Notes under the pieces: generated by a model | Seen by the model: the letters and a program-made list of their open reading frames with translations, nothing else | What the model was told of the DNA's origin: nothing | Database searches by the model: none | In this document: in pieces, positions 21,023 to 49,839 of the stretch | How the letters are laid out: each line of letters opens with the position of its first letter | How positions within the stretch are numbered: the first letter of the stretch is position 1 | Program-made: the position numbers and the translations under genes | Assembly: GCA_030386875.1 (NCBI GenBank) | Contig: CM059569.1 | Location: forward strand, 49,267,842-49,331,841 | Reading direction: 5' to 3' | DNA from: Morinoia aosen | Taxonomy: Eukaryota > Arthropoda > Malacostraca > Amphipoda > Talitridae | DNA: 64,000 nt

Positions 21023-21206
21023 GGAAAACTGGCCGACGGTCCGCCACCGCGGCGTGAGGATGAGCAAAGAGCGCCTCCTCGAGCCGCGATCCGGCGGCCC
21101 GGAACCGGAACGTTGGAGCCGGGAGTTGGCTGAAAGAAAAAAAAGAACCAAAAACAGTTTATTCATAGTAAAGTTTATACATGAAATGTATAACATTGGG
21201 TTTTAA
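21023..21206 (+). CDS. Alternative terminal exon of R1 (RING-disrupting)
   Basis: After acceptor TTTTTTCAACAG the sequence is a paralogue of exon 2 in the same phase: GVxMSK-RLLE-RS-GP is kept, but CPMC becomes WPTV, so zinc ligands 7 and 8 are gone. Splicing from exon 1 would give a 347-aa protein with an open RING and a basic tail ending at 21,204-21,206. The equivalent R2 exon has the same 184-nt coding length, and R3 keeps the frame through the conserved PEPERWSREL. The exon is more GC-rich than exon 2. It is either a functional alternative end or a dead duplicate; frame conservation in three copies favours function. No transcript evidence. Confidence 0.5.
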
Positions 21207-22240
21207 AATACCTCAACATTAAGATCCTTAGTTGATATTCACGCATGGTTATCGTAACACCCATGGCAATTGTCGAAATAAATGATTGAGAGAAAAGTAC
21301 GATAAAATGCGTTCCCTTCGTTGCGTTTATCTGATTTCGATAATGCATATAAATGCACGTGACTAAGAAAACATTATCCTAGTGACGCATTGTTGAGTAC
21401 ACTCTCGTTAGTGGGCACTTATATTGAAATATGAGCATTCACCTGAAATGGACATGCTATAATAAACATAGAAGACAAAAAATTACACACGTCTTGCTTT
21501 GCGATCACAGCGTCAGTAAAACACGTTCAAGGAATGAAGCGATCTCGGCGTCAGCAAAGTACTTTGGTGTGTGATCTTGGCGTCAGGAAAACACTTCCGT
21601 ATGCGGTATCCAGGATGCTGCATCGTAGTCATGGATACATTGATATAAAATAGTCGTGTCTTAGTCTTAAATTTAATTCTCAGACGTTTTATTAGCCTGC
21701 AAATGTTATCTAAACATATCTAGAGAGAAAATAAAATCAACGCAAAACATGATCTTTCCTTATGAAAATCGGTTTATTAGACGAAGTTTCAGAAGAAATT
21801 ACTCATAGGATGGAAAATAAATCGTTGGATTTAGCATAGGTTCTCAAGAAAAAATGCACAAACTCCTGAAAAAAGAAAAGGAAAAATGCAGACCTACACT
21901 GCGCTGCAAAAATAGAATTTACCAAGCATATCGTTCTATTCATTAAGGAAACGCATTTCCCCATTTCACTGAACGAAAACTTCGGGTGATTTTTGTTTCA
22001 AATCTGGGTTACGTATTAGAATTAGCTGACACCCCAGTTACTGGAGTCCATGTTCATTCTGTTGATAGAACGTGGCTGGATTCGAGACTTCCACTACTGA
22101 AAAGTGAGAAGGAAGTAATGACAACGACCGTACAATCACATCTCGATTATCTTTATTGTAGGGAAATACGGAAAAGCCGAATAATTGACTTTTTTCATGA
22201 AGTTTTTGCTGGTAGGGATCCAACTTACGTGCACTATGGA
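21207..22240 (+). repeat. R1 cassette 3' tail
   Basis: Shared with 30,953-32,668 and 40,571-41,668 (both reversed). Contains part of a 109-bp tandem unit (ATATTCACGCATGG...), several GATCACAGCGTCAG-like phrases spaced 40-60 bp apart, and the empty Helitron site (ggaca|tgct near 21,455). Near its end, on the - strand, a frame with the phrase DPYQQKLHEK (22,038-22,223) is partly conserved in the R2 tail. I do not recognise its origin. Confidence 0.7.
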
Positions 22241-22523
22241 AAATGTTTGACTATTTATTCTCGTGTTCAACAACAATAACAAAAGAACATCATAACACAA
22301 AGTCACAGCACCCAAGTTAAATAAAAAATGACAACGTATCAAAAGATAAATCGCAGCTAAGATAACACACCAAATCAGCCTCGGTGATGCGATCGCCTGA
22401 CTAACGGCAGAAAATGACCCGAATTTAACTTTCCTGCGGTTATTCGTAAACAAAGATGGCGTAAACTGTGCACAAGGATGGAACGTGCTCAGAGCGCCAG
22501 TCTACTGACGCAGGAGAACAATA
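22219..22523 (-). repeat. Left arm of a ~300-bp inverted repeat (Penelope-associated leader)
   Basis: The reverse complement matches 23,697-24,018 closely: both read 'ttgttctcctgcgtcagtag' at one end and 'aagttggatcc' at the other. About 1.17 kb separates the arms. The right arm leads into a Penelope-like element, so both arms look like its leader, one linked to the R1 tail and one to the element. Confidence 0.8.
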
Positions 22524-22552
22524 AACTGGCAGATGATTTTGTGATTTTGTGA

Positions 22553-23010
22553 CACCCACTCATACACACCCCCCACATACACACCCCACAAATACACACC
22601 CCACACATACACCCCCCAACACATACACACCCCCACACATACACACCCCCACACATACACACCCCCACACATACACACCCCCCACATACACACCCCACAA
22701 ATACACACCCCACACATACACCCCCCAACACATACACACCCCCACACATACACACCCCACACATACACACCCCACACATACACCCCCCCACATACACACC
22801 CCCACACATACACACCCCCACGCATACACCCCCCACACATACACACACCCACACATAAACCCCCCACACATACACCCCCACACATACACACCCACACACA
22901 TACACCCCCACACATACACCCACACACATACACTCCCCACACATGCATACCCCAACACATACTGTACATACCCTCACACATGCACACCCCCACACAACCC
23001 ACACACGGTC
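22553..23010. repeat. CACACATACACACCCC-type microsatellite
   Basis: Pyrimidine/A-rich low-complexity tract of 14-17-bp units (cacatacacacccc with variable C runs). A block of roughly 65 bp is repeated about 108 bp later (22,570 and 22,678). Long open frames on both strands are artefacts of the composition. Confidence 0.95.
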
Positions 23011-23696
23011 AGGTCATTACAGTATTATCATGGCCAAATATCTTCATTTGTCCCGTCTACCTGAAAATGGTCGTTAACCTTCCGCAGGAGACAGAATTCC
23101 TTCATGTTCCATTTACATGCTAAACTTGACCTGAACTTTCATGCTGCTCATTCTGAAGTTATTGTCTTTTATTTTGAGTTTCAATCATCGAATGGTATAC
23201 AAAACAGCTTCACTACTCCAGGCTACCAATGTTCAGCTAATTGTGCTGTAAAATGCGATAGACTCGTTATTCCAAAGTTATTATGGTGAATGTCGACAGA
23301 AGTAGGAGAGCTATATTCTGCTCTATAGGGTAAAGTAATGCTTTATTTTGAGGCGTAAGGAATTTCTATATTAGGTGTTTCAGATGAATTGATGGAACTG
23401 GCTGGATATTTTGCCGCTGATGTAGGTATTCATTTCGTGAGTGAAATATAAGTTTTAAAAGAGCGTATAATTAAGGCTAAAGTCAAAAATTGAGTTATTT
23501 AATAACCTCGGATTATAATTCCTATTTTTGCTATTGATTCTATCTTTTTTATCATCAGTTAAAGAATAAGTATTTAAAATAGGTTTAAATGAGGACATTT
23601 ATTCCCTCGTCACGTACACGGGACGACCGTCGCAAACCACCACACACCCGACAGTAGAGACCCGAAACACCACCACAAATTTTTATGGCAGGTAAT
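23011..23696. other. Spacer inside the inverted repeat
   Basis: AT-rich sequence with no gene or repeat I recognise. The longest frame is 61 codons. It ends in a short GC-richer stretch (23,600-23,690). Confidence 0.45.
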
Positions 23697-24030
23697 TGTT
23701 CTCCTGCGTCAGTAGACTGGCGCTCTGAGCACGTTCCATCCTTGTGCACAGTTTACGCCATCTTTGTTTACGAATAACCGCAGGAAAGTTAAATTCGGGT
23801 CATTTTCTGCCGTTCGTCAGGCGATCGCTATCACCGAGGCTGATTTGGTGTGTTATCTTAGCAGCGATGTATCTTTGATACGCTGTCATTTTTTGTATAA
23901 CTTGGGTGCTGTGACATTGTGGTTTATATCCTATTCTAAGTTTTGTTTTTTTGTTATTGTTTTACTGTTGTTGAACACGAGAATAAATAATCAAACATTT
24001 TCTATACTGCACATAAGTTGGATCCTGCTT
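23697..24030 (+). repeat. Right arm of the inverted repeat / leader of Penelope-like element 1
   Basis: Mirror of 22,219-22,523 with scattered differences and a few small insertions (for example at about 23,925). It runs directly toward the reverse-transcriptase frame starting near 24,098. Confidence 0.8.
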
Positions 24031-24097
24031 AGTTTTCGCCAGTTTTCGTGAACACTGCTCAAATTTTCGACGTTTCTTCACTGCTCAAACTCTGCAA

Positions 24098-24906
24098 TTG
24101 TTGTGCAACAAGTGTTTTTCAGCTAGTCAATTATTTTACGGGTTTGATAATGTGAATTTTATGCATTTTTTGAAACTAGCAGTTACTGAAACGTATTTCT
24201 TTTTTAATCAAAAGCTGTATAAACAAATAGATGGCCTATCGATGGGCAACCCAATCGCGCCTACTCTTGCTAACATTTTTTTATGCAATATGGAACAAAA
24301 GTACCTTGAGGAATGCCCTGATTTTTTTAAACCTGTGTTTTACAAAAGATACTTGGATGACACATTTGTAATTTTTGAAGATAAATCCCATGCACCGTTA
24401 TTTCTAAATCATATCAATAAGTATCATTCGAATATCAATTTTACTATGGAACCTGAACAAAACAATAGATTAGCTTTTTTAGATCTCAATATCAGTAGAA
24501 CAGAGCAGGGTTTCGTTTCCAGTGTATACCGCAAACCAACTTTTACTGGGTTAGGCTGCAGTTTCTTCAGTTTCTGTCACTTCCGCTATAAACTTAATTC
24601 AATACGGACCCTTCTCCATCGTGCATATAACCTATCCTCCTCATACTCCAACTTTTCTTCCGAATTAGATTTTTTAAAATCTTTTTTTTCTGACAACGGC
24701 TATCCATGCGGTTTATTTGACAGGCTTGTCCGTGATTTTTTATGCAATATATTTTCTCGTCAGAAACAAACCTTGTGCACAGTAAGTAAATGTAAGGTGT
24801 ACATATCTCTTCCTTACATAGGCCCCTCATCTGAAGAAATGATTAGGTATTTCAGGAAATTACTTTCTAAATTTTACCCCCAGATTGACTTCATTTTTGC
24901 TTTAAA
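24098..24906 (+). pseudogene. Penelope-like reverse transcriptase, C-terminal half (interrupted)
   Basis: The frame carries the Penelope-type blocks QIDGLSMGNPIAPTLANIFL (RT motif region) and the catalytic YLDD, followed by VYRKPTFTGLG and a thumb-like region. Upstream fingers are missing, and the frame opens at a TTG rather than an ATG, so this is a 5'-truncated copy. The coding sequence is broken at 24,906 by the LTR element. Reading across the insert and one copy of the TAAA duplication keeps the frame, so the element had no other visible lesion in this part when it was hit. Confidence 0.85.
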
Positions 24907-26181
24907 TGTCGTGACCCTCTTTATTTTATCTCGCTGAGGTCACGGTCTTCATTTTCTTCTGCCGTCATTCTTTGTTACGATGCATGATATTTTTCATGTG
25001 ATATTATTAGTCGTGACATTAAGATTATTCGTCACATTCTTTTATTTTCTACTTGTTAATATCAAGGTAGCTGCCACCAACTCAGAGTAAGTCTGAGTAA
25101 ATATTTAATTCAATCTTCGGTAAGCGCATCGACCGGCTTAAGGCCATAGATTAATCGTGCATTCTAGCCGTGTTTCCTGGCTTCAAACATTATTATTTTC
25201 CTTCTGAATCATATCATCCTCCTTTCCTAACTATCTAAAGGATATGAAGAACACAAGGACATTAAAGAAATTCACTATTGATCGAAGTAAAATATTTAGA
25301 CATTAATCATCGAAATTACGCAAACTAAATTGAGCGCACGCGACCTACGCATTCACATCCTAATATACTCAGAAGCTTGAGTGGGGACTGGGGTTTGACA
25401 TGAAATCAGAGGGAAACTTATCTTGAGATTTGGAGATTGGCCTCGCTGTTTGAATGTCGCCCGGCTGGCGCGCTGAAGCAAGGTCGCCATATTTGGTTGA
25501 GGGCGGAGACCGGGTTGATGGCGGGGGCTATGCCGATAGCAATCTAGATTGATGATCTCAAATTTACTTTAAGCTGGCACTGTAGTTGAGTATTCTTGAA
25601 GTTAATCACTTTCGAGCGAATGAGGGCACAGATATTCTGGGATGGCTTTGAGTAGTGAATTTAAGAGGCAAAGCCTCGGCCCAACTGGACCAAGGTAGAG
25701 GAACAAACTCGTGTGCGGCTGTTTGTGATCGTGTCCCAGCCTCTACTGCCCGCTCTCCCTCAGGCACCCGCGCTCGGCGTCACCTTGAGGTGCCAAGTTT
25801 GAATAACAACCTAACAAGGTTACCAATAAGAACGTGATATATCTCTACAATCGAATAGAAAACATACACCATTAACCTTACCCTCATTACTATATAAAAA
25901 TCCCCACAAACAATGTTATACATATTAATTAAAGCAAATGAAGACATCCGTTGAGGTTCTAGGCATCTTCGGCTGGCGTGATCGTTCGCTCCTTGTAACG
26001 GCGACGTTCGAACGTTGTTCGTGAAGAGTCGACTGTCCTAGAATTCAACGATGTGATGCTTTCTCGCAGAAATCAGGCTTAATATTCGGTCTTTTGGATC
26101 ATTTATGAATAAGTCGTTGGCCGGACGATTATTCGGATCCTTAGCGATGTTCCGTACACAGTTATGCGGAGAAGCATAACA
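24907..26181 (-). repeat. 3' LTR of the LTR retrotransposon
   Basis: Bounded by TAAA on the left and by the purine-rich GGGGGATT stretch (- strand) on the right, a short polypurine tract. Read on the - strand, an AATAAA at 24,920-24,925 lies close to the LTR end and could be the polyadenylation signal. Confidence 0.9.
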
Positions 26182-28993
26182 GAATCCCCCGTGGCCGAAC
26201 AAATCACAAGCTCCAGCTTGTGCTCGAAAGGCTTATCTTCGACGTTGCTCACACGTGCAGCCGACGCCTTAAATGCGTGGATCATGGAAGAGTCAAGATG
26301 CTTACAACTGGAGTTTGCTCTTCTGGCGAGCGCTGGTTTAGAGTCGTCAAATGAAGGAGTCATTATAGTTGTCCTATTGGCAGAACCGTGTCCTATAGAT
26401 GGCACCGACCACTCCCTCCGTTGCGTGGATCACTGCAGTAATCCTTGAGAGTGAAAACCCTCGGAAGTGTAGCGAACACTTCCAAATACACCCAAGTCGT
26501 ATAATCCTGGGCTGCATAACTGGCTCCACCACTTTGCAGAAGTCTTATAGAGATCTCCGAAATATATTCCGTGTGTCGTCGGTCGAAGTGGACTACTACC
26601 TCGTGGAGTTCATCATCTTTTTTGGGGTTGCGTAGGATTCGCTGCCTTTATGCTGAGATCTTTGAGTTGATACGTTGATTTTCATCTGGGCCTCCGTATT
26701 ATTTTCATCGTCGTTGATTACATCAGAAGCCGTCGTCGTCGAATCCATCCAAAGTCCGAAGTCGTAATTGAAATCCCAATGTTGAGCTGTCCTTTAAATT
26801 TTAAATGCCAGTCGTTTTCTATTCACAGTGCCTCAGTAGAAAATTAGCCGCGGTTGTCGACCCAGTCCGCTGATAAGAAGTTTTCTTCGCGTACTCGTTT
26901 TCTACGAGTCGGTGTGCGGGCTCAGGTCTGCAGCTGCGTGTCGAGATAGCCAGCTGCCGCCTGGCGAAGTTTTCTACGCCTCGCCGTTTTCTGTTAGTCG
27001 GCGCGCGAGCTCAGGTGGTTGTCGTCTTGCGTCGTGCTCCAAGCGTCGTGTAGATGGTGGAGTAGGGAGCAGGGGCGCAGCGCATGCGTGGCCAACCCGT
27101 AGTAGTGATGTCGTCCGAGCAGGGCGACGGTGAGAGCGGTGGTGCAGCGCGTGTTCGTGGAGGTGCCGCTCTCACCAACCATGGTGAGTGGTGAGTGATT
27201 GTGCCGGCGCGTGCGTTCAGCCGCGCTCAGCTGATGTCATCCACCACTCCTGAAAGGTCAATCCCATTAAGTGTTTGTTCTGATGTTCTTCTTTAATTTT
27301 TCCCAAGTCTCCCTCTTACATCACATCAACCAAGTCCTCCCTCTCAAACTCCCAAGTATTTACAAAGGGACTTAAGCATCCTACGTTTGAATTTACGTTA
27401 TCATTAGCAAATTACGAATAGAACATAAGGTTCAAAATTTTCTTCAAGTATAGATCGCAAAGTTTAAAATTAATTACATCCTACGAGTACACACACATTT
27501 ACGGAATTATCGAAATACATGAAAGCGAAATAAAATTGAACTATTTTCCCCACACAGAAATATTAATTACAAAAATAATACATAGTATTTAAATTTGACC
27601 AACTCGACGCAATGAAATTCATAGTTGTTCAGGACCAGTAGAACGTTTGAGCAAACATATTAATACGAGATCGTCGAGATTGAATAAACCCGTTTGAAAT
27701 AAATCCTGGCTGTACCAAATTTTTCTTTGAAATCACGAATTGAATTTATTTCACTATTCAGATACGTTGTTGTGTTTTCCTAGTAGTTCGCGCATCATTT
27801 ATACTACGTTTCAGTGACAACATGAGTCCCCATGTGAGGTATTCGCAGGTTATTAATTATTTAAGAGTAATAGTAAATCTAATTCTTTAGATTATACGCC
27901 AAAATGAGATTGGTCCAAGGAACCGTAATTAAATTTTTGCAAACCTTAACTCACTATTAATTCTAATAGCAGACAAATGTCTCCAGTTTACATTCATTCT
28001 CATTTGAATAATGTCATAGGTAATTGGATTTGAATTCATTGTACGTAATACCCAGATAATTGATCAAGAAATCGCACATCATATATTGGAAAAAGATTAA
28101 ATTTATTATACGTTGACTTTAAATTGTAATAGCAACTCCTAGCATCCGTAGTAAATTCTCAGACAAATTTCGTGTAAGATCGTTAGTATTTACTGATTAC
28201 ATCGCATAAATTTCCCGTAGCAATAATGAATTTAATTGAATTTTGTTCTCGCACTTTATCAAATTAAATTTTATTTGAAAGCGTAAAGTATTACATCTAA
28301 AATTTACCAATCCGTGGTTCGTGAGATTTTACATTCGTGCTCAATGATGAAATAATTAAATTTTTACGTTCTCACATGTAATTAAATTTATTTTTCATAA
28401 GAAAAACGTAACCATTACATGCCTAAACTAAGAAAATCGTGATTCACAACATTTATCGTTCGCATAATTGAAGTTTAGAATCATGGAAAGCTGTTGAGTG
28501 TGGCTTTGTGACAGTTCGTACGCCGATACGTGGGCTTTGTTTACAGTCTCACATTCCATTGGCGAGGGCGTGAGCTGCCGCGGCAGAGCCGGCTCACTCA
28601 AGGATTGAGGAATGTTCGATCCTAACATTCGTCTCCAACATAGCATGTTGTTACATTTCAGTTTTTACATTAGATGGTACAGAAAATGCCGCATACTGTA
28701 ATTGAAATTAATTGATGAAGGGAAACGTTGAACATCCGTACACATTATAAGTCTATCGACAACATTGAAATATGAAACATTAATGCAACATTCATTCATC
28801 GTTCCTGATGACATCCCGCAAATAAGTATTCATTAGGAAGAGAGAGATGAGATGATTCAGATAAAGAAATTATGTTTAGTCGGCCAAATATAGATTTTTA
28901 AATTTGAATGTTTGAATGCACATATATTTTTATTTGGAGGTGTGAGTTCGGCAGGCATGAGATTTTACAGTAACATTTACATTTAAAGCAAAA
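26182..28993 (-). other. Interior of the LTR element, no coding capacity
   Basis: No retroviral-type protease, polymerase or integrase motif is seen in any frame. The segment 26,860-27,240 is clearly more GC- and CpG-rich than its surroundings. On the + strand it ends in ACCATGGTGAGT, which looks like a start codon directly followed by a splice donor. It may be captured host 5'-exon sequence. The remainder is AT-rich. Confidence 0.6.
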
Positions 28994-29016
28994 CTCAAAT
29001 CCCACCGCTGCCACCA
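28994..29016 (-). promoter_or_regulatory. Primer binding site complementary to a tRNA-Leu 3' end
   Basis: On the - strand, two bases after the 5' LTR, the sequence reads TGGTGGCAGCGGTGGGAT and continues TTGAG. This complements CCA plus the acceptor and T-arm of leucine tRNAs whose 3' part reads AATCCCACCGCTGCCA (recalled from well-known eukaryotic tRNA-Leu sequences). Over 20 matching bases make the assignment strong. Confidence 0.88.
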
Positions 29017-29018
29017 TA

Positions 29019-30293
29019 TGTCGTGACCCTCTTTATTTTATCTCGCTGAGGTCACGGTCTTCATTTTCTTCTGCCGTCATTCTTTGTTACGATGCATGAT
29101 ATTTTTCATGTGATATTATTAGTCGTGACATTAAGATTATTCGTCACATTCTTTTATTTTCTACTTGTTAATATCAAGGTAGCTGCCACCAACTCAGAGT
29201 AAGTCTGAGTAAATATTTAATTCAATCTTCGGTAAGCGCATCGACCGGCTTAAGGCCATAGATTAATCGTGCATTCTAGCCGTGTTTCCTGGCTTCAAAC
29301 ATTATTATTTTCCTTCTGAATCATATCATCCTCCTTTCCTAACTATCTAAAGGATATGAAGAACACAAGGACATTAAAGAAATTCACTATTGATCGAAGT
29401 AAAATATTTAGACATTAATCATCGAAATTACGCAAACTAAATTGAGCGCACGCGACCTACGCATTCACATCCTAATATACTCAGAAGCTTGAGTGGGGAC
29501 TGGGGTTTGACATGAAATCAGAGGGAAACTTATCTTGAGATTTGGAGATTGGCCTCGCTGTTTGAATGTCGCCCGGCTGGCGCGCTGAAGCAAGGTCGCC
29601 ATATTTGGTTGAGGGCGGAGACCGGGTTGATGGCGGGGGCTATGCCGATAGCAATCTAGATTGATGATCTCAAATTTACTTTAAGCTGGCACTGTAGTTG
29701 AGTATTCTTGAAGTTAATCACTTTCGAGCGAATGAGGGCACAGATATTCTGGGATGGCTTTGAGTAGTGAATTTAAGAGGCAAAGCCTCGGCCCAACTGG
29801 ACCAAGGTAGAGGAACAAACTCGTGTGCGGCTGTTTGTGATCGTGTCCCAGCCTCTACTGCCCGCTCTCCCTCAGGCACCCGCGCTCGGCGTCACCTTGA
29901 GGTGCCAAGTTTGAATAACAACCTAACAAGGTTACCAATAAGAACGTGATATATCTCTACAATCGAATAGAAAACATACATCATTAACCTTACCCTCATT
30001 ACTATATAAAAATCCCCACAAACAATGTTATACATATTAATTAAAGCAAATGAAGACATCCGTTGAGGTTCTAGGCATCTTCGGCTGGCGTGATCGTTCG
30101 CTCCTTGTAACGGCGACGTTCGAACGTTGTTCGTGAAGAGTCGACTGTCCTAGAATTCAACGATGTGATGCTTTCTCGCAGAAATCAGGCTTAATATTCG
30201 GTCTTTTGGATCATTTATGAATAAGTCGTTGGCCGGACGATTATTCGGATCCTTAGCGATGTTCCGTACACAGTTATGCGGAGAAGCATAACA
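29019..30293 (-). repeat. 5' LTR of the LTR retrotransposon
   Basis: Same length as the partner LTR with no indel between them. It adjoins the primer binding site at 29,016, which sets the direction of the element. Confidence 0.92.
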
Positions 30294-30672
30294 TAAAGAA
30301 TGACTTCCAAATTAAAAAATTCTTTAGGTATAAAGACAGGCTGCCCTCTGAATTGCTTTCGAATATTGTCTATAAATTTACGTGCGGAACTTGCCAGAGT
30401 TCTTATATCGGAAGCACTCAGAAACAGTCGAAGATCAGATTTTTTCAACACATAGGCGTTCCTTCAGAACAAACCGGCCTCTAGCATCCTTGACGCATTC
30501 TCCTCCCAGACATCATTGTGAACAGACCAATCATTCGTTCTCAATAGATAATTTTGAAATCATAGGATCAGCTCAGGAGTCAGATATTAGAATTTTAGAG
30601 TCCCTTTATATAACCAAACATAGACCGCAGCTCAACACCGATCAAATTGCCGTGCCCCTGTACACCCAATGA
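30294..30672 (+). pseudogene. Penelope-like element 1 GIY-YIG endonuclease end
   Basis: Continues the frame broken at 24,906. Near the start is YKFTCGTCQSSYIGST, the zinc-ribbon-like CxxC plus the YIG half of a GIY-YIG nuclease; later come an FFQH segment and NHSFSIDNFEII...LESLYITKHRP. A disturbed stretch near 30,440-30,480 may be a frameshift. The stop lies at about 30,670. Confidence 0.85.
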
Positions 30673-30952
30673 TTTAGTTTAGTTTTCGGTTTTTTATATA
30701 TTTTTTATCAAGGACCCATGTAAATTTCCTATGAAGTGTTACAAGTGTTTTTTTTCGAATACTTTGTAATTTTGATTGTATAATTTTTTTGTCCTTTTGT
30801 TTCAGAAGCATTCATTGAAAATGAAAAGTCGAAACCAGCTGGTCTGAGTGCAAATAGATGATTTTTATTGTGACCCTTGTGTTTCTTTTTATACTAAAAA
30901 TTAGGTTTCCTACGAATCGTCCAATTTCTGATATTTTACGTCATAGATATGG

Positions 30953-32668
30953 CCAAGATGGACTTTTGTGGTTTCGATAAGTTGGATCCCTACCAGCAAA
31001 AACTCCATGAAAAAGGTCAATTATTCGGCTTTTCCGAATTTCCCTGCAATTAATATAATCGAGATGTGATTGTAGGGGCTTTGTCATTACTTCCTTCTCA
31101 CTTTTTCAGTATTGGAAGTCTGGAATGAAGCCACGTTCTCTCAACAGAATGAACATGGACTCCAGTAACTGAGGCGTCAGTTAATTCTATAATGTGACCC
31201 AGATTTGAAACAAAAATCACTCCAGGTTTTCATTCAGTGAAACCGTTAAATGCATTTCCTGAATGAATAAAATTAAATGTTCACCAAATTTTGTTTTTGC
31301 AACGCAGTGTAGGTCTGAATTCTCCTTTTCTTTTTTTAGGACTTCATGTATTTTTTTGAGGGCGTAGACAAAATACATCGGTTTTTGTCCATCCCATGAA
31401 TAATTTCTTCTGAATCTCGGTCTAATAAACCATTTCTTAAACGGAAAGATCGTCTTTTGCATTAGTTTTTATTTTTTCTCTAGATATGTTCAGCTAACAT
31501 TTGCAGGCTAATAAAACGTCTTAAAATTAATTGTAGAAACTAAGAAACAACTATTTCATATCAATATAACGGTGACTATGATGCAGCATCCAGGATATCA
31601 CACAGCGAAGTATTTTCTAGACGCTGAGTTGGCGTACCAAAGTGTTTTGCCAACAGTGAGATCACGTACCAAAGCGCTTTCCTGACACCGTGACCGTTCC
31701 ATTCTTTCAAAGTGTTTTCCTGACCCTGCGATCACAAAGCAAGACGTATGTAATTTATTGTCTTATGTGTTTATTATAACACTAGTGTTCACGGCCCCCC
31801 CCCCCCCCCCCCCCCCCAAAATGACGGGATTCCATACCTTTCTTGAAGAAATTTTCAGATGTGGATGACAAACAAATATATCCATCCTAACAGTACCCGT
31901 GGTAAAAAATATTCTTGTGCATGTGCACTGATGAAATCATATCACAGATACGGTCATTATAACTATCCTTATGAGTGTGACAGAGAAATGGAAAAGCGGG
32001 CTCCAAACAAATAAGCCATGGGTATTATTAGGTAGTAGCAGGACCCGTGGAAATACCTCTGACAATATCATCGTTAAGTTAAGTGGACCCGTGAAAAAAT
32101 TCCGTCAACATTACTTACCTATCCTAACCTATCAAACCCTAACCGAATCTATTCTGATAAAATGTCAAACATGTCATTTCATGTAAGGCCATCTTTCAAT
32201 ACACTGAGGAATTCGGTATCCATAAAACCGCAAACTCAGACATCCTATGTTTCTCAAGAAGCGGACACCAAACAGATATATAAATAAACACACAACGGGT
32301 ATTATTAGGTTAGATGTCCATTTCAGGTGAATGCTCGCATTTCAATATAAGTGCTCACTAACAAGAGTGTTTTCAACAATGCGTCGCTAGGATTATGTTT
32401 TCTTAGTTGCTTGTATTTATATGCATTGGAAAAATCAGATAAACTCAACGAAGTGAACGCATTTTATCGTGTTTTTCTCTCAAACGTTTGCTTCAATCAA
32501 CACAGATATTACGATAACCATGTGTGAATATCAACTAATGAACTCAATGTAAAGTTATTTGAACGCATTTTTTCATGCTTTCCTCTAAATCATTTGTTTA
32601 GACAATTGTCATTGATATTACGATACCCATGTGTGAATATCAACTAAGGATTTTCATGTAAGGATATT
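30953..32668 (-). repeat. R2 cassette 3' tail (with Helitron insertion)
   Basis: Reverse copy of the R1 and R3 tails. Contains two-plus 109-bp units (anchor aatatcaact at 32,527 and 32,636) and, at its far end, the DPYQQKLHEK frame on the + strand, broken by a stop. A frame of 81 codons (31,217-31,462) is not preserved in R1 and is not called. Confidence 0.75.
31782..32314 (-). mobile_element. Non-autonomous Helitron (533 bp)
   Basis: On the - strand it begins TCTAACCTAATAATACCCG and ends GTGAACACTAG, so it has the 5' TC and 3' CTRR ends of Helitrons. It sits between A and T with no target duplication. The exact empty site survives in R1 (ggaca|tgctataataaac) and R3 (ataaca|tgtcc). A 23-bp homopolymer (C on +, G on -) at 31,795-31,817 lies just before the 3' end, where the usual terminal hairpin should be. 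No ORF. Confidence 0.87.
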
Positions 32669-32852
32669 TTAAAACCAAATGTTGTTCATTTCATGTGTAA
32701 ACTTTATTATAAATAAACTGCTTTTCTTTCTTCCTTCTCTTCCATCCAACTCCCGGCTCCAACGTTCGAGTTCGGGGCCGCCGGATCGCGGCTCGAGGAG
32801 GCGCTTTTTGCTCATCCTCACGCCGCGGTGGCGGGCCGTCGGCCAGTTTTGC
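32669..32852 (-). CDS. Alternative terminal exon of R2 (RING-disrupting)
   Basis: Acceptor TTTTTTCAACAG, then a frame matching the R1 alternative exon: N-W-P-T-A replaces N-C-P-M-C, then RHRGVRMSKKRLLEPRSGG. Coding length is 184 nt to the stop, as in R1, giving 347 aa when joined to exon 1. The loss of both cysteines is shared by all three copies and so predates their duplication. Confidence 0.5.
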
Positions 32853-33479
32853 CTGTTGAAAAAAGACGCACGTTAATAAAAATACATGTGAAGCTCTGAG
32901 GCAACAGTCACGTAATGGGTTCTAATCCCTTAAACTTTGCAAATGTGAAAAGAGAAAAGTCGTATGATTTAAATTGTACTGAAATCCAACGTTTGTTTCA
33001 ATGTATATTGTTATTATGACTACACAATTGCAGTGTTTCCACAAATTTTCTGTGCCTAACTCATCATTACATGTTTTCCATAGTCATTAATACATTTTTA
33101 TTAACAATTATGAGTTGTTAAATGATATTTCATTCAAAATTGAAACAAAACTATTCATGAAACAGTGAGAATGTCATTTCCAGAATTTGCATCAAAAAAA
33201 AACTTACTGAGCTAATTTCTGAGAACACGAAACTAGACCAATGAAGAAAATACCATTTTCTGGTCGAGCCTCGATTGAAAACACATATTCGGCGTCTTCT
33301 GCCATCCTGATGCTACAGATGAAAACTACTTTTTGTTGATACTATACGTTATCTATTAAACAAATCTGTACGTAGACCTGGCACTGATGCTTTAGACATC
33401 TTTAAGTATAGAATAAAAACAATAGTTTCGCAATTCATACCAGCTTCAGCAGTATACCAAAATTATTAAAAAAATTTGC

Positions 33480-33790
33480 AGTTTTATATTCACGTCATCT
33501 AGATAACCATGGAGGAATTACCCATACCGCATCAGAACTTTGTAGAGGAATTACCCACGCTAAAACTGATATTTATGGAGGATTTAGGCATCCACAGCCA
33601 GATATTTAAAGAGGATTTATGCATATTGCATGTCTTTCTACCGAACAAAACATGCTGCACCTGATATTTATAAAAAATTTACCCATACTGTACGAGATAA
33701 CTTTAAAGGATTTATATGCCTGTCATCGATAATAACGTAAGATTATAGTAAGGCCTGCATAAGTTTCTAGTACAGCTTTCACATGAGCAC
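33480..33790 (-). repeat. Degenerate 50-60-bp repeat between R2 terminal exons
   Basis: Loose tandem phrases (aattacccataccgcatcag, gaggatttatgcat, and so on) at irregular 50-60-bp spacing. Reverse counterpart of 20,130-20,420. No coding potential. Confidence 0.65.
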
Positions 33791-34092
33791 AGTTGGCGCA
33801 CACTCCATGCGATCTTAGCTCTAATCAGCTCTGATACATCCATTTAAAAAAATTATTCCTTAATGAAATTAAACGGAAATTAATTATTCACGAATTAAAT
33901 TCTACACAAATTAATGAAACACAACTTAAATTATCCATAAATTTTTGTGCACAAATTAAAACACTCCCCAAAAAAACACTAGATACTTGTTCTAAGATCT
34001 CTAACGCGGAAATAAATTCTGGCTAAAGTTCTCGACCGTTTCAGTACTCAGAAATTCATCTGTCCCCCGCATCCCTCACCCAACTCACGGCT

Positions 34093-35822
34093 TCAGTGTG
34101 CCGGTTTCGGACCGCTGGATCGTAGCTCGAGGAGGCGGTCTTTGCTCATGAACAGGCCGCTCTGACGACACATCGGGCAGTTCTGTCTGTTGAAGAAAGG
34201 TGCACGTTAATACAAATCTACTAGCAGGTTTGGTGAAACAATAAATTATTGAACTCCACTGCCTCGTACTCAGCAGTCAAAGTTACCGATACCCCATAAA
34301 GAAAAATTTAATTTCAAACTTCGAATTGGTCTTAACAACGTATCTCAGCGATAGTATTAAGGCAAGTACTGCTGTCTAAAATAATGGTACATTGGTAAGA
34401 AATATTGTGAACCAAAGAAGAAATGCGGGTATTGCTACTTGCTTATTCTGAGCTGGTAGTTTAAATTCATGAGTCTGTCTAGCTATGAGAAGGTTAATTA
34501 GGGAAAATTTATATGCAATGAAATGTAACGGCCAATCAATGTTCATTTAAAAAAGTGCCAAGGAAGATCACTGAACGGGTAGACTTTCTTCTCGTCAATA
34601 AATTGTTACTCGCTACACGGGCTTCCAGGAAACGTGGGACGATGTGATATTCATGAGCAGGTTATCAAAGAGCATTTCAATTTTTTTTGGACAATTTTCC
34701 AACACAATATTTTGCTCGAATGTTTTTAATTAATCACCGTAACAAAAAGTGTCAGGCGTTTTAGCCAACTCTATATTCCAGCTCCAGATGACGTACGTGG
34801 AAATCTTTCAGTGCTTGAATCCAAGCCCCTCGCTGAGTAACTTTAATTTTCCATCCAGTTTGTTTAAAGCGTAGAAATGAAAAAGAGTTGCTCTGCCATA
34901 ACAAAACGAGCGCAATGCCGCAAGTACTCAACCACAACATAAGACAGAAAAAAGTCACTTACTTTGTTTCAAACCAAGCAGTGATGCAAGGTGTACAGAA
35001 AATGTGGGCGCACTCCGATTGCACGGCGAAGTCACTCGATTCTTCAATAGTGGACAAGCAGATTCCACATGTCTTGGGACCATCATTTTGTGGCAGGAGG
35101 TCTTTGGCGCACACGACGTTGGCGAACTTCTCAGACTGGCCGCACAAGAAGCTCTGTCTTCTTTCCCATGCTTTGAGTAGTCCAATATTTTGCTGGATCG
35201 ATGCGACAGTAGCCTTAATAACTCGAGCATATTTTTGGTTCTGAAAAAAATTTTCCTGAATAAAACTGGTTGAAATGTTGATGTGCTGCCCAAGAACATC
35301 CAATTTCCTGTTCATGTGACGACAGTAGCTGTATTTGGGCAATTCCTTAGCGAGATGTTTTGTCTCCATTTCTTGAGCCATCAATGTCACTCTTAAAGCT
35401 TTTACAAGAACAGCAGATGTTCGAACGCGCAGCAGTTCTGTTGCCTTCTCGATAATAGTTTTCAGTAGTTCAATCATACCAAATATACTGTCCAGCTTGG
35501 GATTTGCACTTAAACAAGTTGCAGGAAGGCAACTTCTCACCCATGGATCTTCACTTGAGTTGCACTCGTCTTCATTGCTTGATTCTTCATTAGAAAATGA
35601 AATGACCGATCCTTGGCTTGGGAGGTCTGAATTGCCGTCGTTGTTGAATTCATTGGAATTACTGGAGTTAGATTCCATTTGCTCGCCAAGCGATGCAGCG
35701 TCACCCACACTCGGGGCGTAGGTGGGAACTCCAGTCCACCATGGAGCAGGGCTAGAATTGGCCTCTGGCTCTGACTGCTCCTGAGGAGCCCGCTGATTTG
35801 ATGTGTTCTGGTGGAAACTCAT
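34093..35822 (-). CDS. RING-finger protein R2, probable E3 ubiquitin ligase (317 aa, two exons)
   Basis: Exon 1 35,822-34,963 (860 nt) and exon 2 34,186-34,093 (94 nt), separated by a 776-bp GT-AG intron. Exon lengths equal those of R1 and R3. The Ser/Asn-rich N-terminus differs from R3 at one of the first 65 residues. The middle (about 66-190) carries some thirty differences from R3 and more from R1. The C-terminal C3HC4 RING is complete (CGIC, then C-A-H-x2-C-x2-C, then CPMC from exon 2). It ends RSSGPKPAH. The frame is intact and the promoter conserved, so the gene is likely expressed. Substrate and pathway unknown. Confidence 0.88.
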
Positions 35823-36062
35823 GATGAATTTTTTAAAAAAAGAAGCAGTCTCAAAGAATATTTTGATGCTTTTAGGGCAAGTTGAACCACTTAGAGCACT
35901 ATTTCAAGCAGACTTCGACAGTCAAATTCAATGTCACTGTAGGTAGATCTCAGTTTATTACAAAAATCACTTCGTGTTTTCAGAAACAACGAACTTCCTT
36001 AACACGAGACACGACTGAGAACCTTTACGAGCACCTTGTGTACAGTGTAGAGCCGCAACTGA

Positions 36063-36165
36063 ACTGAATGGTGATCACAAAATCGTGCCTGCTTATATAC
36101 CCAGCCGAGGCCCCTCCCAACCGGCAGGACGACAGCCTCATCTGACTACCAGGTAGCTCTGTGGT
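36063..36165 (-). promoter_or_regulatory. R2 core promoter
   Basis: On the - strand, TATATAAG with first T at 36,099 and a duplicated TTCAGT initiator with start A at 36,065, spacing 34 bp. The GGGAGGGGCC box and the CAGATGAGGCTGTC phrase upstream match R1 and R3. Confidence 0.85.
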
Positions 36166-37267
36166 CAATGGTCAAGCTCAACTTCGGCTAAACGAATACA
36201 TTACATACGAAACTATGTTCAAGATGTAAAGAAATAATTAAATTTACGTAGCCGTTCCTTCTTGAAAGGACTCGCAAATTTTGCTTCAAGATGTTGAATA
36301 AATATTGTGCTTGTTAGAAATAATTCAAACTAGTTGAAATAGAATATTCATTTGGAAACTGTTAGAAAACATTTACAAGGTTATAAAATTCTGAAGCCAC
36401 GAAAACATAGTTACTTGTTTTAATCAACAAAGAAATTAATGCTCGTCTCATCGCACTTTTATTACGCACACGAATTTCATTTTCTGTTCGTCGTTCAGTT
36501 CGTTTTTTTCGAATATCTTTCGTACTCTCGCCATCGATAGAACGGCTCAAGACATTCTCTTTTTTTCTGTTTGATTGAATTCTTTGAGATGTGAATCATT
36601 CTCGTAATAATATATTTATGATAATTCAGTACTGTTCAATTGTTTGAAAACATGAGAATATGTGATGAGCGTATTACTGATACAGGCTCCAATGCAGGCT
36701 TCAAATTTTCTTGGCGAGAATACTTTAAACGCTAAGGATCTATCCTGAATCTCATACTGTACACAAAATAAACAAAAAACTAAAGTTCATTGCGGAACGT
36801 GAACTGTTGTTCCAATGTCAGGGCATTTCGAATGAATGTGTGTGGTGCTAATACGATGATTTTTGGTTAAATTTATAATGGTGAAAATTTATTTTTAGAC
36901 ACACTGTCTCAGATAATGATAATTTTCATAAAGTTAAAATACTCCAGTCGAAGCATCAATTACCCAATGTATTCATCACCTGCGGGTTGAAGTATGAAGA
37001 CTTAAAAGCATAATCAAAAACATGGAAGCCTTTTTTTAGTTTAATTGAAGGCACTCGAAAGCAAATAATTGGTGTTGGCTTCTCAACTTAAATAAGATCA
37101 ACTCATTTAGCAAGCGTTTATTTTTATGGGCGCAAGCAGTTCACACACGCTGAAGCCAATTAATGTTCCGATAAAAACTTCAGCCATCAGCAAAACTACT
37201 TAATTTTCCAATGACATGATATTCCTGATACCTCAGTTAGGACTACGAATTTTAGCTCTAGTTTCAG
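36166..37267 (-). other. R2 upstream flank
   Basis: The part up to about 36,720 is shared with R1, and the part up to about 36,600 with R3. The segment about 36,580-37,267 is missing from R3, where 'gttgaattc' runs straight toward block A. No gene seen. Confidence 0.6.
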
Positions 37268-38956
37268 AACAACAATAAGGTACGTATCAAAAGTGGCGCA
37301 GGTGCATGTTTGGAGAATTTAGGCGTGGGAAAGATGACCATCGGACGCAGTGAAGGATCGCGCAAAGCCCCAAAATGACCGCCTGGCCGCGACTGGCGCG
37401 TGCGATTGAGGCGAAAGGAACACACTTCTGCTCCCTGGATCACACCGACTGCACCGCACACATCGCGATGTGCAGCACATCACACCATCATTACACCAGC
37501 TCGTAAAGTATCCCATTTGCTACAGCACACGCACATCAGTTTGCACAGACCTTATGCATAACACATTCCACAAAACTCACACAACAAAATACGAATGATT
37601 TCAGCGCTCAAAGTTGCACGCAATGCAGCGCAATCCCACAAAACTCATCGAATTTTTGGTGTGACTTGGTGACTTAGTGAGAGCTTGTGTGTAGTTTGTA
37701 TTGACTACAAAACGCGGTACTGCGAGAGAAATGATGAGCGACTTGCGCTCTATTTTTCTTGCTTTACCAATGATTTGTTCAACCGAAACATTAGGGCATC
37801 GTCTCAGGTATTGTGCCTCTTTTCCTAATATTTAGATCCAAATCGCATTACGTCGTTTGTAATTCTGTTTGAAAAACGGCTTCACGCAGATAAAGGCGTT
37901 GAGTGTCGGTTAACGACCAAAAAACAACAGGGCGAATGCGTTGGGAATTTTTTGCCGAGGCCGTGGCTTAGTTTCAAATTTACTTGAGATAATTCAGTGA
38001 TTCATATCTCTTGAGAGAAATTTCAAACAAACCGCTAAAGTGCGAGCACAAGTAATTCACCGCCTGGCATGAGATTTGCTCGGGTGTTCTGGGGAATTTG
38101 GTTTCTGTTTAATTTAGCAGATAAGAAACTTCAAATGTTTAAAAAATCGCCATGAGACTCTCACGCACATTCCAGTGAGTGACATACCGAATAATTATAT
38201 ATTCGGCAATGTTGGATAAGCTGCTCTGCATGCTCTTAATGAAACATAATAATTAATGTCTGTTTAATCAATTTCAATTTCGTGGGTGTAATCTAATACG
38301 TAACTCCACCTGTTCACAAAGCTCGTATGAGGCTCACAGGCGCTCACACCAACATGACCTTGTCCTTGTTTTCGTTCGGAGGCGAGTGACGCGCTGTACT
38401 ATTTTATGGTCGGAAAATTTTTGAAGAGCTGCCTTGCCTGCTCTCATTGAAACTCAATATATTTATGTCAAACAATTTTATTCAAGAATAGGACAACACG
38501 TTTCCAAATAGTATAATGCGTTGAATACAAAAAAAATACGCGCTGAGTACCGAACGTTTGAGGGAATATTTGCTTGTGTGCAGCCTCGGCCCGTGGCTGT
38601 GGTGCGCATCGTCTGCCGCGTCCATGTTTGGTTCTACTGGAACTTTGGACTCTCGTCGCAGTCCCAATGCCTGTTTACTATTCTTTAGTTCCAGATGCGA
38701 TTTGGACGTTTTTACGTCACTTTGAATTATGATTATACGCAGGTGGAAGCTTTGCGTGTGCTGGGGAACGAGCAAAAAACAAAGACCAGCAAAAAACAAA
38801 GGGCGAGCCCATCGGGAAGATTTTGTCACGGTTTAGCTTCAAATTTACTAAAGACAATCCGTTGATTATTATCTTCCGAGAGGAGCTTGTCTCCAGCTGC
38901 TGAAATACGAGTACAGGCTCACCGCCTCACGTCTGGTTTGTTCTCTCGGCCTGCTA
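37268..38956 (-). repeat. Cassette block A, copy 2 (R2)
   Basis: Reversed and longer version of 9,494-10,700, parallel to 45,655-47,326. Both conserved ends are present: the GC-rich CACATCGCGATGTGTGCGG region and the GGCCGAGAGAAC end next to the minisatellite. No frame is conserved across the three copies. Confidence 0.8.
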
Positions 38957-39240
38957 TGTTGACGTGGTGCACGTGGTTGTCTACGTGGTGCACGTGGTTG
39001 TCTACGTGTTGCACGTGGTTGACTACGTGGTGTACGTGGTAGTCTACGTGGTGCACGTGGTTGTTAACGTGGTGTACGTGGTAGTCTACGTGGTGCACGT
39101 GGTTGTCTACGTGGTGCACGTGGTTGTGTACGTGGTGCACGTGGTTTTCTGCATGGTGCATGTGGTTGTCTACGTGGTGCACGTGGTTGTCTACGTGGTG
39201 CATGGGGTTGTCTACGTATGCACGTGGTGTACGTGGTTAT
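38957..39240 (-). repeat. R2 21-bp minisatellite with CACGTG boxes (short allele)
   Basis: About 13 units of the 21-bp repeat (gtctacgtggtgcacgtggt phase). The last unit (from about 39,211) has a longer form containing 'gcacgtggtgtacgtgg', the same composite that is expanded to about a dozen 30-bp units in R3. This is the shortest of the three arrays. Confidence 0.9.
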
Positions 39241-39268
39241 CAGTGCTGATTTCATCGCTAATGAAGCT

Positions 39269-39295
39269 TGAATTATTATTATTATTATTATTATA

Positions 39296-39360
<65 letters not shown>

Positions 39361-39735
39361 AGAAAGTTTTAGCCTCCCTTAACCACGACAAAGATGTTCT
39401 AAGAGAGGAAAGAGTAAGGCACCATTTAGTATGGAGTTGAGGGAACGCGGAATCTATGCACAAGGTGCTCAGAAACAGTAAGCTAGGAAAGAAGTTCATG
39501 AAACAAGAAAAAAGTTGAAGGAGAAAGTAGTAGGTGCTGAAAAGCAGGGCAGCTGTGAACCAAAAAACGATGGTCCGTAACAAAACAAAAACCTATTTTA
39601 TCAAAACAAAAAGGAAGCCTACCTAACCTCTAGCTCAGTCCCTCACGTGGTTCCCCTGGGAGCGCTGATTCCCATAGATACAATAGTTGTATCCCTCTGA
39701 GGGGAATGAAGCATGAGACAACAAAATAAATTTGT
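39269..39735 (-). mobile_element. Retroposon fragment with (AAT)n tail, only in R2
   Basis: On the - strand a body containing 'ttccgcgttccctcaactc' ends near 39,360 and is followed by about 88 bp of nearly pure AAT repeats. R3 lacks the whole segment: 'aatgaagtt...ctatgaaaaa' is almost continuous there. A related fragment lies at 51,490-51,765. This is probably the 3' end of a non-LTR element or SINE. Confidence 0.6.
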
Positions 39736-39739
39736 GTTG

Positions 39740-40190
39740 AGAGTCCTATGAAAAAATCCTGTAAAATTCTACGATCATTCATATCTTGATGTCCCAATTG
39801 TCCCCCATGAACACACCACTGACCAGCGCCTGATATTGTAGATTATAACAGTGAATCTCGTGTACGCAAAAACTGCTCTTTCAGTTCCGTACTAGGTACT
39901 CCTTAGGTGCCCATTCTCTTCTCGTATCCCGATTTAAGGAAGTCATGTCCGTCTACTTCGCACACCAACACAGATGGCGCCTTCATTTATAGCGTTCGTA
40001 CCACAAAATCGCTCGTCACATCTCCTCCCAACCTTCAGCACATTATTCCTAACATTTGTTGCTCTCGTGCCCACACGAGAAGCCTGTACCCGGCGCACAT
40101 TTGCTGCCGCGCTCACCGCAGCGGTACAGAGCTGTTGCGACCTATGCCGTGCCCCGCAGACCTCCGCTCAGCCCTTGCATGCTGAAGTCA
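39740..40190 (+). repeat. R2 copy of the segment beyond the minisatellite, single 82-bp unit
   Basis: Matches 48,150-49,840 of R3 (shared 'cctatgaaaaa', 'ttccgtactaggtactcct', 'ctcgtgccc'). It contains exactly one 82-bp unit, 40,066-40,147, followed by CGTGCCCCGCAGACCT as in R3. It therefore shows the state before the R3 expansion. Confidence 0.85.
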
Positions 40191-40570
40191 CATGCAAACG
40201 TATACGTGTAACGAGGGAACTATATAGTGGTCTGGAAGATTATAACTCAGTAGCTGAACTTCACATTTGTTCCTCAAAAACTGTCGGAAGGATTAATTTT
40301 TGGGATAACCTTGATATTACCAGAAATGTGATGTGACGTTAGCAGTTTTAAATTGCAAACTTTTTACATACATTTACTTCATATTTTTTTTATCTTCCGA
40401 CACCTCAAAGACTACTTGCGCTTCAGTCATTTTTGAAGAGGAGAGTATGCCGTTCTCATAACCAAAATGAAAATCACTTCATAGCGCTATTAATTATTGG
40501 TCAGGTATTGTTATTCTAACAACAAATAATCGAACTATCATTTTTATATTCAATTCACAGAATTTCGCTG
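40191..40570. other. Spacer between cassettes R2 and R3
   Basis: AT-rich and without a recognisable gene or repeat. It ends where the R3 tail begins (actccagtaactgatgcgtc). Confidence 0.45.
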
Positions 40571-41668
40571 TCACATGGGACTCCAGTAACTGATGCGTCA
40601 GTTTATTCTAAAATGTGACCCAGATGGAAAAAAAATCACTCCATTCAGTGAAATGGGGAAATGCATTTCCTGAATGAATAAAATTATATGCTTAGCAAAT
40701 TCTGTTTTAGCAACGCAGTTTAGGTCTCAATAATTGTTCTCCTTTTTTTAGGCCTTCGTGCATTTCTTCTTGAGGGCGTATGCAAAATACAACGATCTAT
40801 TTTCCATCCTATGAATAATTTCTTCTGAATCTTCGTCTAATAAACCAATTTTCAGAATGAAAAATCGTCTTTTGCATTCGTTTTTATATTTTTTCTAGAT
40901 ATTTTCAGCTAACATTTGAAGGCCAATAGAACGTTTGAAAATTAAATATAGAATCTGAGACACGACTATTTTACGTCAATATAGCGATGACTATGATGCA
41001 GCATCTTGGATACCGCATACTGAATTGTTTTCCAGACACAAAAATCACATATCAAAGCGCTTTCCTGGCGCCGAGATCGCTTCATACTTTCAAGGTGTTT
41101 TCCTGGCGCTGCGGTCGCAAAGCGAGACGTATGTACTTTATTGTCTCCTGTGTTTATTATAACATGTCCATTACAGCTGAACGCTCGTATATCAGTATAA
41201 GTGAGCACTAGTACGAGAGTGTACTCAACAATGCGTCACTGAAGGATTATGTTTTCTTAGTTATTGATGTTTATATGTATTGTAAAAATCAGATAAACTC
41301 AGCGAAGGGAACGTATTTTATTGCGTTTTTCTCTCGATCGTTTGTTTCCACTGACGTAGGTATTAAGAAAACCATGCGTGAATATCAACTGAGGATCTTA
41401 ATGTTAAGACATATGAATGGATTTTTTCGCGCTGTTCTGCCAATCATTTGTTTCGACTATTGTCATAGGTATTACTGAAACCCTGTGTTAATATCAACTA
41501 ATGGTCTCAATGTGAAGTTATTTGAACGCATTTTTGAGGGCTTTTCTCTCAATTATTTGTCTCGACAAATGACATGGGTATTACGATACTCATGTGTGAA
41601 TATCAACTAAGGACCGTCATGTAAGGATATTTTAAGCCCAACGTTGTCTATTTCATGTGTAAACTTTA
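40571..41668 (-). repeat. R3 cassette 3' tail
   Basis: Reverse copy of the R1/R2 tails but cut before the DPYQQK frame. Carries three units of the 109-bp tandem repeat (anchor aatatcaact at 41,381, 41,490 and 41,599). Retains the empty Helitron site at about 41,170. Confidence 0.75.
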
Positions 41669-41810
41669 TTATAAATAAACTGTTTGTTTTTTTCTTCTTC
41701 CACCCAACTCCCGGCTCCAACGTTCCGGTTCCGGGCCGCCGGATAGCGGCTCGAGGAGGCGTTCTTTGCTCATCCTCACGCCGCGGTGGCGGACCGTCGG
41801 CCAGTTTTGC
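41669..41810 (-). CDS. Alternative terminal exon of R3 (RING-disrupting)
   Basis: Acceptor CTTTTTCAACAG, then Q-N-W-P-T-V-R-H-R and the conserved GVRMSKERLLEPLSGGPEPE. A small indel in the lysine-rich tail brings the stop forward, so the coding part is 142 nt, against 184 nt in R1 and R2 (333 aa in total). Both zinc ligands supplied by exon 2 are missing here too. Confidence 0.48.
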
Positions 41811-42790: not shown

Positions 42791-43153
42791 CTGCATGAGT
42801 TTCTAGTTCAGCCGTCACATGGGCACAGTTGGCGCAGACTCCGTATGATGTTAGTTCTAATCAGCTCTAATATTTTCATTAAAAAAATCATTCATCACTT
42901 AAATTAAACGGAAATTATTTATACACGAATTAAATTCTACACAAATCATTGAAACACAAATTAAATTATTCATAAGTTATTCATACACAAATTAAAACAC
43001 TCCCCCAAAAAATAACTCTAGATACTTGCTCTAAGACCTCAGGGGTTAAAATCTCTAACGTGAAAATAAATTCTGGCTAAAATTCTCGACCATTTCAATC
43101 TTCAGATATTCAATATTCATCTGTCCCCCGCATCCCTCACCCAACTCACGGCT

Positions 43154-48057: not shown

Positions 48058-48425
48058 ATAAGGTTTACATGGATATAGTCAATATCCTACTTAACAATCA
48101 CATAATAAAAGCATTGCTGCTTCCGTTGCAAATGAAGTTTAAAACAGGATAAAAATGTATTAACAGCTCTATGAAAAACCATGTAAATTTGTACGATTTT
48201 TACTGTATAGTATGAATTTTCCAATTGTCCCTCATGAACACATCATTGAAGAGCTACTGGAATTGTAAATTATGAATGTAAATCTCGTATACGTGAAAAG
48301 TGATCTTTCAGTTCCGTACTAAGTAATCCTTTGGTGGCGGCTCCATTATTACCGTGCGTACGATAAACTCGCTTGTAACATGCCCTCTAACTCTTTATTA
48401 TATTATTCATACCATTTCTTCATCT

Positions 48426-49819: not shown

Positions 49820-49839
49820 CGTGCCCCGCAGACCTCGGC

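Follow-up and report, generated by a model that had tools for sequence, protein, structure and literature searches.

A duplicated terminal exon in a RING gene family of the amphipod Morinoia aosen: a coding copy and a putative 3' untranslated copy

The part of PMC9013439 that deals with tandem exon duplications describes them in coding and in untranslated regions, including terminal exons (Drosophila pip), and presents the duplicated exons as mutually exclusive. Here we describe a family of RING genes in the amphipod Morinoia aosen in which the terminal exon is present twice. Three two-exon members lie in the stretch under study, 64,000 nucleotides of contig CM059569.1 (positions 49,267,842 to 49,331,841 of the forward strand; referred to as the window, with coordinates counted from its first letter), R1 on the plus strand and R2 and R3 on the minus strand. 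A preliminary description of this DNA had taken the downstream copy, which we call ex2', for an alternative last exon that would destroy the RING. We favour, with moderate confidence, another history, in which duplication of the terminal exon left an upstream copy (exon 2) that stayed coding and a downstream copy that became an exon of the 3' untranslated region (3' UTR).

In all three genes exon 1 carries zinc ligands 1-6, while exon 2 supplies the last pair (CPMC) and reaches its stop codon after 30 codons. The final exonic base of exon 1 is 18695 in R1, 34963 in R2 and 44021 in R3, and the first base of ex2' is 21023, 32852 and 41810, respectively. The features are listed below, a slash marking the exon border at a donor.

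17836..18695, plus strand: R1 exon 1, coding part; N-terminal region and first six RING zinc ligands; donor AAA/GTAAGT
19714..19811, plus strand: R1 exon 2; CPMC; stop codon 19805-19807; end at 19811 (donor 1) or 19820 (donor 2)
19812..19826, plus strand: R1 candidate splice donors past the stop codon; GCC/GTGAGT at 19812, TGG/GTGAGC at 19821
21023..21190, plus strand: R1 ex2' (WPTV), predicted terminal 3' UTR exon; AGTAAA 21167-21172 at the poly(A)-signal position; 3' end approximate
34963..35822, minus strand: R2 exon 1, coding part
34089..34186, minus strand: R2 exon 2 (CPMC); donors GTGAGT at 34088 and GTGAGG at 34079
32690..32852, minus strand: R2 ex2' (WPTA); AATAAA 32708-32703; 3' end approximate
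44021..44880, minus strand: R3 exon 1, coding part
43150..43247, minus strand: R3 exon 2 (CPMC); donors GTGAGT at 43149 and GTGAGG at 43140
41650..41810, minus strand: R3 ex2' (WPTV); AATAAA 41670-41665; 3' end approximate

The product of exon 1 and exon 2 contains all eight C3HC4 zinc ligands, the last pair coming from exon 2, and for R1 it matches Pfam zf-RING_2 with E 3e-10 and 40.6 bits (curated cut-off 27.3). If exon 1 of R1 is joined to ex2' instead, the match ends at position 38 of the 44 in the profile and the score of 29.3 barely exceeds the cut-off; W and V (A in R2) stand where the last zinc-ligand pair should be, and such a junction would cost the RING its last two ligands. No whole-protein homologue was found in the protein collection, either with a single sequence (E up to 1e-3) or with an eight-member alignment (E up to 0.01), and a literature search on duplicated terminal exons, RING-less forms and family expansion found no publication on this RING family.

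As the preliminary description had it, R1, R2 and R3 each have a second copy of the last exon downstream of exon 2, its CAACAG acceptor matching exon 2 in phase. The spacing, given there as 1.2-1.4 kb, measures 1309, 1334 and 1437 nt in R1, R2 and R3. The loss of CPMC is likewise borne out, with ENWPTV (R1), QNWPTA (R2) and QNWPTV (R3) facing NCPMC in exon 2 of all three, and so are the open frames of 184, 184 and 142 nt, corresponding to 60, 60 and 46 residues. Since ex2' of R1 matches exon 2 with 78% identity over 110 nt (E about 1e-20), we regard it as a true duplicate and not a chance resemblance; the ex2' blocks of R1 and R3 are 95% identical over 133 nt. By profile, the homology to exon 2 extends from about -80 to about +110 in most copies and reaches +347 and +396 in L017 and L023, two of the family loci introduced next. 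Judged by its sequence, ex2' is a real exon-like duplicate, common across the family and with a conserved acceptor.

A search of the same genome (1.99 Gb, 29 contigs) with exon 2 gave 40 scored matches among 67 candidates, and the locus count is a lower bound. With R1-R3, the 34 stretches of 8 kb taken around matches outside the window make 37 loci, of which 30 form the non-redundant set after removal of near-duplicates (L010, L014, L019, L030, L031, L041, L042). The family thus has at least 37 loci, the majority of them on one contig and the rest on three others. The alignments leave out the remnants of ex2' at L018 and L019, as well as an antisense stretch 4 kb past exon 2 of L035; as regards exon 1, L031 has none in its stretch and that of L009 and L010 is cut by the stretch end. 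Both exon-2 zinc cysteines are kept in 37 of 37 loci, and the first six ligands are present (by eye) in all 36 loci whose stretch covers the RING-coding portion of exon 1. In each of these 36, at least 202 open codons of exon 1 precede the donor, and exon 2 has its acceptor AG; the exon-1 donor is GTRAG in 35 of 36 (GTAAAT in L035). The usual exon-1 start was not found in some loci (L033, L011). Within exon 1 (25 loci compared), a variable middle part with a ratio of nonsynonymous to synonymous differences per site (pN/pS) of about 0.75-1.1 adjoins a constrained RING end with 0.27.

Outside the window, too, ex2' is common: of the 30 non-redundant loci, 20 have it at full length and three more in truncated form (L012, L018, L025), 23 in all. 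Because both halves of the midpoint-rooted exon-1 tree contain copies, ex2' is probably about as old as the sampled family, unless gene conversion spread it. The pairs L009/L010, L013/L014 and L018/L019 are near-identical (900, 895 and 900 of 900 nt around exon 2) and lie on C14 near 47.65-47.71 and 48.49-48.58 Mb, which suggests a recent segmental duplication or an assembly duplicate. Exon 2 of L040, L041 and L042 has an intact CPIC, with a tail and an AATAAA (+141) of the ex2' type; it would be either a fusion of exon 2 and ex2' through deletion, or an older state.

Evidence on the roles of the two copies comes from the splice donors that follow the exon-2 stop codon, GTGAGT 4 nt and GTGAGN 13 nt past it. 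Ranked by U1 pairing alone among the GT sites from the start of exon 2 to ex2', the second donor (TGG/GTGAGN at exon 2 +104 to +106) is the top site in 13 of the 20 loci with a full-length ex2' (R1-R3 included) and ranks second in three (L017, L023, L024); the top site of L038 is its donor at +97. Out of 87, 89 and 98 GT sites in R1-R3, the second donor ranks 1 and the first ranks 7. The first donor is lost in L026, L032 and L034 and the second in L020 and L038, yet at least one GTRAG donor is retained in every one of the 20 loci with a full-length ex2'; counting remnants of ex2' as well, it is 23 of 23 in the non-redundant set. An upstream alternative last exon would be expected to lack such a donor. 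Where exon 2 has its own 3' end and ex2' is absent, the donor is retained in one locus out of five (L021, as opposed to L035, L036, L039 and L040); it is also retained in L027 and L028 (2 of 2), for which no 3' end was found. The comparison of 23:0 with 1:4 gives a Fisher p of 2.4e-4, kinship ignored, and the losses fall in about three lineages of the exon-1 tree, which carries no support values. The 18 copies of ex2' that have the common tail lack both donors; in L017 and L023, where another 3' end (type D, see below) follows ex2', the second donor is kept and the common-tail AATAAA is absent. In L038 the stop codon of exon 2 is lost and the sequence is replaced right after a stronger donor, ACG/GTGAGT, such that the frame could run into ex2'.

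The second line of evidence is the 3' end. The acceptor AG is present in all 22 copies of ex2' that reach the acceptor region (22 of 23 overall, L018 having lost the acceptor half), and an aligned AATAAA lies near ex2' +142 in 16 of 20 full-length copies. Among the 18 common-tail copies AATAAA is intact in 16 and is the top 6-mer between +100 and +290, a region with an average 6-mer retention of about 6-8 of 18. These copies thus combine a conserved acceptor and a conserved poly(A) signal with the absence of a donor, the features of a terminal 3' UTR exon. Between exon 2 and ex2', on the other hand, no position with AATAAA or ATTAAA is common to more than 4 of 20 loci; 8 of 20 have no AATAAA there, and only L024 lacks both hexamers. 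The copies of ex2' that are broken or replaced (L011, L022, L033, L034, L012, L025) all retain the acceptor AG and an AATAAA, in L012 and L025 with the body swapped after about 24 nt for 3' end D, which has its own AATAAA. Type D also occurs in L017, L018, L021, L023, L035, L036 and L039, and since these nine loci do not group as sisters in the exon-1 tree, the genes seem to have swapped 3' ends with one another.

Exon 2 therefore looks like an internal exon, with donors just past its stop codon and no shared-position poly(A) signal before ex2', and ex2' looks like a terminal exon, with a poly(A) signal and lost donors. From these observed features, their pattern of conservation and the co-loss of donor and ex2' we infer that the spliceosome and the polyadenylation machinery would make use of the exon-2 donors, the ex2' acceptor and the poly(A) sites. 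In an ancestral RING gene with two exons, the terminal exon would have been tandemly duplicated and its roles split between the copies: the upstream copy would have kept the coding part (last two zinc ligands and stop codon) together with the donors and lost its own 3' end, and the downstream copy would have ceased to code, retaining the acceptor and the poly(A) signal. In the usual message, exon 1 would then be followed by exon 2 and by ex2' as a 3' UTR exon. A stop codon close upstream of the last exon junction is not expected to provoke nonsense-mediated decay, and because the stop lies less than 20 nt before the last junction, this message would be expected to escape it.

Several observations weigh against this division of roles. 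The first donor has a poor exon side (GCC) along with its rank of 7 in R1-R3, and neither donor reaches rank 3 in L013, L020 and L033. L018 retains the exon-2 donors despite the loss of its ex2' acceptor, and L021 retains them even though a 3' end of its own seems to follow exon 2; L027 and L028 yielded no 3' end. The signal position reads AGTAAA in R1 and AATGAA in L038, the latter having AATAAA at +123 instead. An AATAAA precedes ex2' in R2 (exon 2 +1083) and R3 (+783), as does an ATTAAA in R1 (+1186), and an earlier 3' end upstream of ex2' is possible in R1-R3. Finally, the body of ex2', with an identity of about 0.91 against 0.5-0.8 in the flanks, is conserved more than a plain 3' UTR needs.

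An unlikely alternative is a single long unspliced 3' UTR that extends from exon 2 across ex2' as far as the poly(A) signal, with donors and acceptor as relics. L035, L036 and L039 fit this layout, having a donor-less exon 2 followed by D with AATAAA at about +926 to +976. Against it, all 22 copies of ex2' that reach the acceptor retain its AG and all 23 loci with ex2' retain at least one donor, although adjoining sites of the intron depart from the majority base in about 10-22% of cases.

We likewise doubt, and no less strongly, the proposal of the preliminary description, according to which skipping of exon 2 would join exon 1 to ex2' and yield a RING-dead protein that acts as a competitor of the ligase or as a substrate trap. 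It can draw on the same-phase acceptor in every copy whose acceptor region survives, on the 17 of 20 full-length copies that pass codon 24 with neither indel nor stop, and on the AATAAA or ATTAAA that 19 of 20 loci have before ex2', at scattered positions and not at a common place. Moreover, ex2' is conserved like exon 2 (pairwise identity about 0.91 each, 20 loci) and has few silent changes, a pattern of alternatively spliced exons. The frame or motif of ex2' is nevertheless lost in 7 of 23 copies, each in a locus where exon 1 is open and exon 2 intact: L022 is shifted, L033 has a replaced start, L034 a stop and L011 a deletion of nine bases, the body is replaced in L012 and L025, and L018 has lost the first half. 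The hypothetical C-terminal tails of full-length copies range from 12 to 60 residues with no common stop, and ex2' is absent at L021, L035, L036, L039 and L040-L042, loci that do have exon 1 open and exon 2 intact. Together with the exon-2 donors and the poly(A) signal of ex2', the broken copies and uneven tails argue against an alternative last exon for a useful RING-dead protein.

A codon-level comparison had been suggested as a check on that proposal. The 17 indel-free copies of ex2' (L011, L022 and L033 left out; in one run also L028, and L025 for exon 2) carry 39 nonsynonymous and 15 synonymous changes, matching the expectation under no selection, as against 42 and 14 in the corresponding exon 2 sequences. 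By codon position (1, 2 and 3), ex2' has 15, 19 and 15 variable sites of 30, and exon 2 has 14, 13 and 19. The pairwise pN/pS over codons 1-24 is 1.62 (0.96-3.3) for ex2' and 0.97 (0.51-2.5) for exon 2, and over codons 1-30 it is 0.84 (0.48-1.7) and 0.82 (0.44-1.8); the values for ex2' (0.84-1.62) are none of them distinct from neutral, and the RING part of exon 1 gives 0.35 (0.21-0.54). The test has little power: on 24-30 codons it is weak by itself, because exon 2, with its cysteines unchanged in 37 of 37 loci, likewise comes out near 1. Our case is not built on it, and the structural damage and varied tails are the better evidence against a coding ex2'. Nothing in the sequence analysis points to selection for the form that joins exon 1 to ex2'.

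Relative to the exon-1 RING, exon 2 and ex2' show two- to four-fold lower variation at silent sites; the synonymous differences per site are 0.085 and 0.051 over 24 codons and 0.114 and 0.104 over 30 codons for exon 2 and ex2', compared with 0.230 for the exon-1 RING. In exon 2 and ex2' alike, variants are mainly singletons (for ex2', 0.71-0.88 vs about 0.4-0.54 in flanks past 30 nt). This low silent variation could stem from gene conversion centred on the short GC-rich exon 2 and ex2' blocks, or from RNA-level signals. For ex2' the signal of a conserved RNA fold was weak and not clear over 17 loci (z -1.65; exon 2, z +1.65), and in 10 loci docking of competing RNA structures, with the initial 400 nt of intron 1 set against both exons and 110 nt upstream of each, gave no consistent signal (z -2.2 to +1.8). 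We think it quite improbable that RNA-level signals in exon 2 and ex2' regulate the inclusion or skipping of exon 2 in at least 20 loci, which would make a switch between an active ligase and a RING-dead decoy that share the fast-evolving N-terminal region. Least probable of all is a dead duplicate, in which ex2' would contribute nothing to the message and be homogenised across loci by gene conversion: the prevalence of singletons is what homogenised copies would show and codon-level constraint is not seen, but AATAAA and acceptor are selectively kept even in broken bodies, and ex2' is lost together with the exon-2 donor.

Elsewhere in the window, identical direct repeats of 300 nt (the maximum repeat length reported) at 24906-25205 and 29018-29317, 4.1 kb apart, resemble the ends of a young retroelement. 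Open reading frames at 11950-12750 (266 aa) and 13377-16379 (1000 aa) have the look, by eye only, of LINE ORF1 and endonuclease/reverse transcriptase. Long tandem arrays of 21-nt and 82-nt units occupy 47243-49955, beyond R3, and are partly mirrored near 38.9-40.1 kb. A 298-aa frame at 59276-60172 on the minus strand matches F5/8 type C weakly, below the cut-off (E 0.0045).

If the duplicated exon is read as a coding copy followed by a 3' UTR copy, the many parallel paralogues would offer a worked case of how duplication of a terminal exon can split coding from 3'-end formation and add a 3' UTR exon. They also call for caution in annotation, where similarity alone would label ex2' an alternative RING-dead isoform. 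Should the exon-2-skipping form be real after all, the family would be a natural experiment on decoy ligases.

With respect to known proteins, the product of exon 1 and exon 2 resembles RING E3 ligases of the C3HC4 type in its eight zinc ligands, and its best structure-chain match by sequence is a chain with two RNF4 RINGs (E 1.3e-12), followed by a RING2-BMI1 chimera and Arkadia. RING-less splice forms are reportedly made from BARD1 and MDM4; a form joining exon 1 to ex2' would share with them an incomplete RING, but unlike them it is hypothetical, a prediction from the sequence. The closest parallel lies in the tandem-duplicated exons, as far as the relevant part of PMC9013439 describes them: there, as here, the terminal exon is doubled with homologous acceptors, and such duplicates also occur in UTRs. 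The pairing by competing structures, of the start of intron 1 with both exons, was not found in 10 loci of our family. In contrast to the mutually exclusive exons treated there, the copies in the family of R1-R3 appear to be used in series, one for coding and one for the 3' end, and such serial use of duplicated terminal exons with divided roles is the variant that we propose here.

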